Shown piece by piece: positions 2,257 to 4,761 of a stretch of 43,066 nucleotides of DNA (the first letter of the stretch is position 1; each line of letters starts with the position of its first letter). A program made the position numbers and the translations under genes. The notes beneath the pieces are model-generated. The model searched no databases. It was not told the origin of the DNA and was given only the letters and a program-made list of their open reading frames with translations. Source of the stretch: Candidatus Iainarchaeum sp. (GTDB taxonomy: Archaea > B1Sed10-29 > WALL01). The DNA lies in assembly GCA_021162685.1 (NCBI GenBank), contig JAGGYF010000044.1:1-43066 (forward strand). Reading direction: 5' to 3'.

Positions 2257-2370
2257 ATGGGAACAAAAGGCAGCAAAAAAGGTGAAAAGTACAAGAAAAC
2301 AGGCCATATGAGATGGAAATGGAAGAAAAAGAAGATGCGAAGAAAGAAGAGAGCGATGAAGAAGAGCTGA
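2257..2370 (+). CDS. L41e-like ribosomal protein with N-terminal extension
   Basis: 37 aa MGTKGSKKGEKYKKTGHMRWKWKKKKMRRKKRAMKKS; C-terminal part matches the MRxKWRKKRMRRxKRK pattern of L41e; strong RBS GAGGAGGAG upstream. Confidence 0.65.
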   Translation: MGTKGSKKGEKYKKTGHMRWKWKKKKMRRKKRAMKKS

Positions 2371-2378
2371 TAGCGTAA

Positions 2379-2462
2379 GCAGGGGTGCCGGAGCGGACAA
2401 ACGGGCAGGGCTTAGGACTCTGTGGCTTAGTGCCTTCGGGGGTTCGAATCCCCTCCCCTGCA
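2379..2462 (+). tRNA. tRNA-Leu (anticodon TAG)
   Basis: GCAGGGG/CCCCTGC acceptor; anticodon loop CTTAGGA; long class II variable arm; GGGGGTTCGAATCCCC T arm. Confidence 0.93.
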
Positions 2463-2766
2463 TTCAGGGGCCTTGTGCCCCTGTTGATTCGGAGATTTTG
2501 ATGAAACTTTTGTAAAAAGTTTCTTCGAATCCCCTCCCCTGCACCAGCGTCTTGGGGGGAGCTGTGCTCCCCCCGAAACCCTGGGGTTCATCCCCCCTCC
2601 TAGTGGGCTGGTCGCCGAAGGCGAGCACCCACGCTCGTCGACGGAGCACCGTCGTTTGGATCCCCTCCCCTGCATTCACCAAATTATACATATGGTCGTT
2701 CGTAGTGGGATACAAGATCCCACTATTAGAAATCATTGGAGGAGGATAACAAACGCTCCCCTGCAT
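2443..2766 (+). repeat. Array of tRNA-Leu 3'-end copies separated by hairpins
   Basis: TTCGAATCCCCTCCCCTGCA at 2443-2462 (tRNA) and 2524-2543 (20/20); ATCCCCTCCCCTGCATTCA at 2448-2466 and 2660-2678 (19/19); CTCCCCTGCAT at 2756-2766 (11/11). Confidence 0.9.
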
Positions 2767-4291: not shown

Positions 4292-4761
4292 TTGACATAA
4301 AATTGGATAAAGGGCAAGAAGTAATTGTTGGCCAGGGAAACTTCAGTTTGAAAACTACTGATGATATTGCAAGGGTTATGTTAACAAGTGCCCCAAATAT
4401 CAAAGTCGGGGTTGCAATGAACGATGGCGGCATGAAGATAACACGAAGTAGTGGAAACGATGAAAAACTTGAAAAAAAGGCAGCTGAGATCTGTTATAGA
4501 ATTGGTGCAGGTCATGTTTTTGTTGTTATTTTAGAAGGTGCATTCCCAGTAAATGTTCTGAACGATCTACAACATGTGCATGGTGTTTGTAGCATATATG
4601 CTGCAACAGCAAACACATTACAACTCATTTTGGTAAAGACGGAGCAGGGCAAGGGCATCATTGGTGTAGTGGATGGAGCAAGCCCACAGTCCGTGGAGGA
4701 CGAGCCAACAAAGGAGGAGAGAAGAAAACTGCTGAGGAAGATAGGGTATAGGTTGGGTTAG
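4276..4761 (+). CDS. Adenosine-specific kinase family (DUF355) protein
   Basis: 161 aa; IKVGVAMNDGGMKITRSSGND... AGHVFVVILEGAFPVNVLNDLQHVHGVCSIYAATANTLQLILVKTEQGKGIIGVVDGASP is characteristic. Confidence 0.85.
   Translation: MDTEVIDIKLDKGQEVIVGQGNFSLKTTDDIARVMLTSAPNIKVGVAMNDGGMKITRSSGNDEKLEKKAAEICYRIGAGHVFVVILEGAFPVNVLNDLQHVHGVCSIYAATANTLQLILVKTEQGKGIIGVVDGASPQSVEDEPTKEERRKLLRKIGYRLG

Follow-up and report, generated by a model that had tools for sequence, protein, structure and literature searches.

Probable repeated insertion of small hairpin elements behind a tRNA-Leu gene of Candidatus Iainarchaeum

Behind the tRNA-Leu(TAG) gene of Candidatus Iainarchaeum sp. (GenBank assembly GCA_021162685.1, contig JAGGYF010000044.1), the 3′ end of the tRNA recurs three times, and each recurrence is set apart from the one before it by a spacer made largely of hairpins. 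The stretch analysed here, called the window, is the 43,066-nt contig 20 of a genome of 1.1 Mb that is 98% complete (G000; other genomes are numbered from G001 onward, and L-numbers denote loci). Sequence matches between two further genomes of its class, G017 and G018, and GenBank contigs of Candidatus Diapherotrites archaeon (PULY01000050.1, PWFL01000009.1) place the lineage in Diapherotrites/Iainarchaeia. The locus very probably records three separate insertions of non-autonomous mobile hairpin elements at one tRNA-Leu tail, each of which duplicated its target. The three spacers are dispersed repeats and their flanks match the local target, which argues for repeated insertion of small hairpin elements; the elements nest in one another, differ among relatives at this locus, and break tRNA genes at preferred positions. 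We found no description of tail-duplicating hairpin elements at archaeal tRNAs in the open-licence literature. The phenomenon is widespread, seems to be undescribed, and is relevant to how disrupted tRNA genes arose.

Results

Three tail copies and three hairpin spacers

The letters read directly, ARAGORN, Rfam and a repeat finder agree on the array, and all of the hairpins quoted in a preliminary description of this DNA are present in its spacers. The features, all on the + strand and in window coordinates, are as follows.

2379..2462, +: intact tRNA-Leu(TAG), host of the insertions (ARAGORN, Rfam)
2443..2462, +: original tail, from T-loop to discriminator base, TTCGAATCCCCTCCCCTGCA; left copy of the target duplication
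2463..2523, +: element E1, 61 nt; left hairpin CAGGGGC-CTTGT-GCCCCTG, right hairpin GAAACTTTT-GTA-AAAAGTTTC
2524..2543, +: right copy of the E1 target duplication, identical to the tRNA tail at 20/20
2544..2659, +: element E2, 116 nt; its start, (C)CAGCGTCTT[GGGGGGAGC..GCTCCCCCC]..CCCTGGGG, is the B head
2660..2674, +: right copy of the E2 target duplication, ATCCCCTCCCCTGCA, 15/15
2675..2757, +: element E3, ~83 nt, an A element; CACC..GGTC hairpin, GTTCGTA, GTGGGATACAAGATCCCAC hairpin, TATTAGAAATCATTG, decayed B end ACGCTC
2756..2765, +: right copy of the E3 target duplication, CTCCCCTGCA, 7-10 nt; overlaps the ACGCTC end of E3 itself

The second tail copy (2660-2674) reaches 19 nt if the TTCA after it is counted and has TTTGG before it, not TTCGA; the third (2756-2765) is 10 nt long, or 11 with the next T. 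The preliminary description had called this stepwise shortening, and the copies do shorten, but they are better described as three duplications of unlike length and age than as one process. E1, nearest to the tRNA, looks like the youngest insertion. A direct-repeat scan with 44 background tiles found just two comparable direct repeats elsewhere in the window.

The tail copies keep the 3′ tRNA strand and lie downstream of transcribed tRNAs, which would suit a functional transcribed unit, in which hairpin RNAs use tRNA tails as 3′ processing signals and have been duplicated in the genome. Such processing is not required to explain the array. The copies lack the 5′ strand of the T-arm and acceptor stem, and the same elements occur in tRNA leaders, introns and protein-gene starts, which leaves this explanation very improbable.

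Dispersed families with conserved stems

Compared with 200 shuffles of the same DNA, two of the spacers, E1 and E2, fold far better than expected (z -6.9 and -5.2, 0/200), and E3 only moderately so (z -2.2, 6/200). The right hairpin of E1, taken on the - strand, is the archaeal head GAAACTTTT..AAAAGTTTCATCAAAA, and a relative of E1 at ~85% over 57 nt lies on contig 17 of the same genome (G000:C17). E2 may be read on the - strand as an A-B composite layout with diverged stems.

A genome-wide search with the spacers, which the preliminary description had suggested, returned many matching places and shows the spacers to be dispersed repeats. With the array segment as query, E3 (A family) matched on many contigs of G000 and E1 on another two. 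Fragments of E1 and of E2, the latter of the B family, matched in other genera and other families. Queries made of the A, M, N and E1 units matched at 35 places in G000 and in 4/4 other genomes of the family. The elements range from ~50 to 190 bp, and most carry a terminal hairpin, on one side or on both. Their copies are built from a limited number of heads, namely A, B, M, N, E1-left and E1-right, each of them a hairpin flush with the break, and composites with two heads facing outward are frequent. M elements sit within A elements, in one case with a 14-bp duplicate.

Stem pairing is kept through matched changes: both sides have changed in 10/22 pairs of the M family and 4/11 pairs of the A family, the covariation score was reached by 0/500 shuffles in either family, and pairing is lost when the partner strand is slid. 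These kept stems point to selection on the folded strand, be it RNA or DNA.

The end of contig 15 (L024) and the start of contig 34 (L035) of G000 both break within a hairpin element, and joining them would give one element behind tRNA-Leu(CAG), with a tail copy. Further contigs of the assembly likewise end in hairpin-element repeats.

Flanks that copy their own target

Elsewhere, too, the flanks of these elements copy whatever stands at the insertion site: tRNA tails, tRNA 5′ parts with leader, a protein-gene start (duplicated over 41 bp) or another element. Tail copies follow, for example, tRNA-Leu at C15:41 (TTCGAAGCTCGTCCCCCGCA), tRNA-His (AATCCCGGCTTGGGCC) and tRNA-Ser of G003 (GTTCAAATCTCCCCCCCAGCGC), and a single element has different flanks at each of its sites. 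Repeated insertion of tiny hairpin elements with target duplication had been the first option of the preliminary description, and it is strongly supported here, with the spacers dispersed and the duplicates following the local target and not the element.

In a scan of 150 tRNA genes from this lineage and outgroups, with T-arm look-alikes removed by hand, about 22 had credible downstream tail copies and 13 had credible upstream 5′ copies. The upstream cases have their inner break at tRNA nucleotides 14-21, in the D-loop, in 12/13 instances, and 14-18 nt from the start of the tRNA are duplicated together with 2-26 nt of leader (leader up to 26-45 bp overall). Downstream, the inner break falls mostly 13-22 nt before the 3′ end, in the T-loop or at its margin; the outer one coincides with the tRNA 3′ end, in most cases to within 0-5 nt. 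Duplications measure ~7 to 61 bp and do not have the fixed, family-typical length of miniature inverted-repeat transposable elements (MITEs). The load can be high: about 13 of the 43 tRNAs of G002 have a duplicate, and the inserts there are hairpin elements that share a right-hand hairpin. Selection accounts for the survival of insertions that restore the tRNA; alone, it does not account for inner breaks placed in loops.

Tyrosine integrases act on tRNA genes at the 3′ end, the T-loop or the anticodon loop, and the identity blocks left behind reach the tRNA 3′ end. Stacked att scars of deleted integrative elements, formed by such an enzyme at the tRNA T-loop or 3′ end, had been another option of the preliminary description, and an integrase gene (Phage_integrase) is present in G002, G003 and G004. 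None was found in G000, though; the blocks vary from ~7 to 61 bp and go beyond a tRNA att core to take in a protein-gene start, another element, and tRNA 5′ ends with their leader (up to 26-45 bp); and the same element has unlike flanks from site to site. With non-tRNA DNA duplicated and duplication length this variable, att scars are quite unlikely.

The same locus in relatives

Upstream of the tRNA lies a short basic open reading frame (ORF), which by its sequence is likely the gene of ribosomal protein eL41:

2257..2370, +: short basic ORF MGTKGSKKGEKYKKTGHMRWKWKKKKMRRKKRAMKKS, likely ribosomal protein eL41, by resemblance only

A similar ORF precedes tRNA-Leu(TAG) in relatives and serves as a synteny anchor. 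The locus could thereby be compared across genomes, a check that the preliminary description had proposed. In G008 (L054) no element stands behind the tRNA; G001 and G003 have an M-like element there, G004 has an E1-left-type hairpin, and G011 has a tail-duplication stack of its own. The preliminary description took presence of one and the same segment in all relatives as an argument against mobility; that one neighbourhood holds unlike elements or none favours mobility. Stacked tails also occur in G009 and G014 and, outside the class, in G034.

A head shared across archaea and found inside tRNAs

In a GTDB scan, the E1 head GAAACTTTT-loop-AAAAGTTTCATCAAAA occurs, among the matches listed, in Micrarchaeota, Diapherotrites, Aenigmatarchaeota, Altiarchaeota, Nano-, Woese- and Pacearchaeota, Methanocaldococcus, one thaumarchaeote and some Firmicutes. 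Among these same matches, 23/60 archaeal heads lie in a tRNA or ≤130 nt from one, compared with 10/560 control positions, and 13/60 lie inside a tRNA, compared with 3/560; 0/68 bacterial copies are linked to a tRNA.

Where it is inside a tRNA, the head begins at the anticodon loop, the D-loop or the junction of the D and anticodon arms. At other loci (L163, L185, L257 and the window) it adjoins breaks in the T-loop or D-loop, with the outer part of the tRNA duplicated. Because the head is found both in tRNA loops and at duplicated tRNA breaks, one hairpin sequence occurs both as an apparent intron and as a scar. Where no long duplication accompanies a head hairpin in the D-loop or anticodon loop, the hairpin is presumably a spliced intron, and the predicted folds of some head-bearing pre-tRNAs are compatible with the bulge-helix-bulge intron motif; the three elements of the window lie outside the tRNA. 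An anchored duplication test on the head alone found duplicates in 8/68 archaeal cases, a set that includes a few bacterial records. Of the cases with no duplicate, several appear to be introns, and the rest may be old or have moved otherwise.

Related interruptions were seen at several loci. At L013 (G008:C1) and L020 (G030:C2), each near 1501-1640, a tRNA-Leu is interrupted in the T-loop in the pattern GGGTTCGAA, ~50-60 nt, AATCCC / AACTCCC; duplication is slight or absent, and these are either T-loop introns or broken genes. At L177, in a Nanoarchaeota metagenome-assembled genome, and at L279, a tRNA-Asp-like gene is interrupted twice, once by a GAAACTTTT hairpin in the anticodon loop and once by a T-loop insert (GGGTTCAAA, tens of nucleotides, TCCCGG). 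From L162 to L276 (Defluviitaleaceae, Oscillospiraceae), many GAAACTTTT..AAAAGTTTCATCAAAA hairpins stand beside variable GGGGCTCTGCCCC hairpins, mostly in intergenic DNA and never at tRNAs; they are a parallel hairpin family in Firmicutes.

Viral contigs scanned with the A and M heads gave no match. The E1 head occurs in two only, as one intergenic hairpin each: L285 (IMGVR_UViG_3300031965_000543, 4355-4382) and L284 (IMGVR_UViG_3300045557_000076, 4383-4410). One of the two has tailed-virus-like genes, and neither has a tRNA or an evident autonomous carrier. Carriage of the hairpin between hosts by viral contigs is possible.

Searches for a mobilising enzyme

RVT_1 reverse transcriptases were found in 0/21 genomes of the neighbourhood, G000 included, in a search that covered RVT_1 alone among such enzymes. 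This counts against RNA-mediated insertion in the manner of short interspersed nuclear elements, in which a structured RNA would be copied into a nicked tRNA gene by target priming. Structured elements with covarying stems and variable duplications resemble the products of such a process, which we nonetheless regard as unlikely.

Cas1 is equally missing from G000-G012. Integration at the tRNA-Leu 3′ end by a Cas1-family enzyme, as in a CRISPR-like or casposase-like array, has in its favour that casposases target tRNA-Leu 3′ ends and duplicate the target (PMC6977970). The duplications of casposons are a uniform 14-15 bp, though, those here run from T-loop to 3′ end with variable length, and the spacers are repeated families, so that integration of this kind is extremely improbable. 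CRISPR-like array and casposon readings were both rejected on the lack of Cas1 and the non-uniform duplications. An IS200/IS605-type or REP/RAYT reading was also rejected, with target duplications present and Y1_Tnp absent from G000-G010; DDE transposases were not part of that search.

No shared terminal inverted repeats were recognised among the elements, which have outward hairpins at their ends. The TnpB search of G000 returned only a sub-threshold fragment with stops. This match, at G000:C5:14797-14946 (L286), is to a TnpB-type domain, has its stops in frame and is a decayed IS605-like remnant. These are very small archaeal genomes that carry a substantial load of mobile DNA, seemingly without the common enzymes searched for.

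Discussion

In the reading that we favour, insertion proceeds through two offset breaks. At tRNA genes these lie in the T-loop or D-loop on one side and, on the other, either where the tRNA ends or within its leader. The sequence between the breaks (~7-61 bp) then flanks the insert on either side; the tRNA is thereby left whole, and a displaced fragment persists as a scar. Repeated insertion behind one tRNA shifts older scars outward, with the nearest copy perfect and farther ones less so. The breaks may be staggered nicks at the exposed hairpin loops of the tRNA sequence, followed by joining of DNA with foldback ends and then gap repair, carried out by an enzyme supplied in trans, which a host archaeon could provide, or by host repair machinery.

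Template switching at the replication fork is the main rival where mechanism is concerned, but it does not compete with the account of how the locus came about. A polymerase stalled at a tRNA or element hairpin would copy a distant hairpin and return upstream of where it started, giving an insert with a variable duplication and requiring no transposase. In its favour are duplications that vary, composites that are mosaics, breaks that fall at hairpin loops and the failure to find a transposase. Junction contexts read by eye show no consistent microhomology at the heads, however, and that one specific head is strongly conserved among archaea suggests more than random choice of template; we judge template switching to be somewhat unlikely.

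Several observations weigh against insertion of mobile elements as we describe it. A hairpin flush with both ends is not found in every element, and the right end of E3 is decayed. Decay and chance matches blur the boundary calls, and duplication lengths are more variable than for any fixed-offset transposase. At equal score, the reverse-direction null gives 8 downstream and 4 upstream matches, which is not zero, and it also picks up some real events and T-arm likeness between tRNAs; it is still the better control, as random positions fell in element-rich loci and were contaminated. Repair of palindromes, or other template-directed repair, could also yield compensatory changes in stems. The searches for Cas1, RVT_1, Y1, integrase and TnpB did not identify a mobilising enzyme, and the relatives compared belong to other genera, with no movement observed between closely related strains.

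Only tentatively would we extend repeated insertion to a general account, in which hairpin-ended mini-elements that enter tRNA loops via offset breaks, through a putative enzyme or replication process, form an undescribed class of mobile DNA and a general source of archaeal tRNA introns, of tRNA fragments in leaders and trailers and, ultimately, of split tRNA genes. If this is true, the length of the duplication and the spliceability of the insert would set whether a scar or an intron results. It is an open question how archaeal tRNA genes gain introns and come to be fragmented, and this lineage offers dozens of snapshots, with exact break points, duplicates and empty sites, that make it testable by comparison of strains.

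None of the known systems that we compared matches all of these features. The closest are tRNA-intron transposition in Thermoproteales and the mobile hairpins of mitochondria, and neither does so fully. Large-scale tRNA-intron transposition in Thermoproteales is attributed to Fujishima et al. 2010, with its mechanism stated as unknown, in the passages of PMC4033280 and PMC4090602 that cite that work. The present elements differ in that the same kind of sequence is also found outside tRNAs, flanked by duplicates of the tRNA tail or of its head with leader, and in their occurrence in another archaeal lineage, Diapherotrites, and several more. In Caldiarchaeum, a disrupted tRNA-Thr consists of a 5′ tRNA fragment, a 1.8 kb insert with a putative recombinase gene and an intact, intron-bearing tRNA (PMC3293823). 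The tRNA is newly intron-bearing and the geometry is that of our 5′ duplications, but the inserts here are hairpins of 50-190 bp with no gene.

Yeast mitochondrial GC clusters are short, mobile, shuffling hairpins flanked by AG or ACT (PMC4478555). Like them and the mitochondrial double-hairpin elements, the elements described here are short, noncoding hairpin DNAs that merge and shuffle and whose palindrome is under constraint, seen here as the covariation of M and A stems. The likeness is one of kind, not of descent, and differs from GC clusters in duplications of ~7-61 bp and in tRNA loops being the main break points. Prokaryotic MITEs, REP and RPE (PMC10969869) are likewise short, multicopy, non-autonomous and palindromic, but here no terminal inverted repeats of a resident transposon were recognised, duplication length is not fixed, and a Y1 transposase was not found.

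Casposons share with these elements insertion at the 3′ end of an archaeal tRNA-Leu with target duplication, and in M. mazei the duplication includes only the last 4 bp of the tRNA-Leu (PMC6977970). Their uniform duplication, Cas1 and terminal inverted repeats are not seen here.

Two upstream duplicates around hairpin inserts may also be recorded. At L042 (G034:C27, 280-500), a tRNA-Thr is duplicated over ~25 bp. At L086 (G004:C32), the duplicate of a tRNA-His measures 61 bp with its leader, about four times the casposon size.
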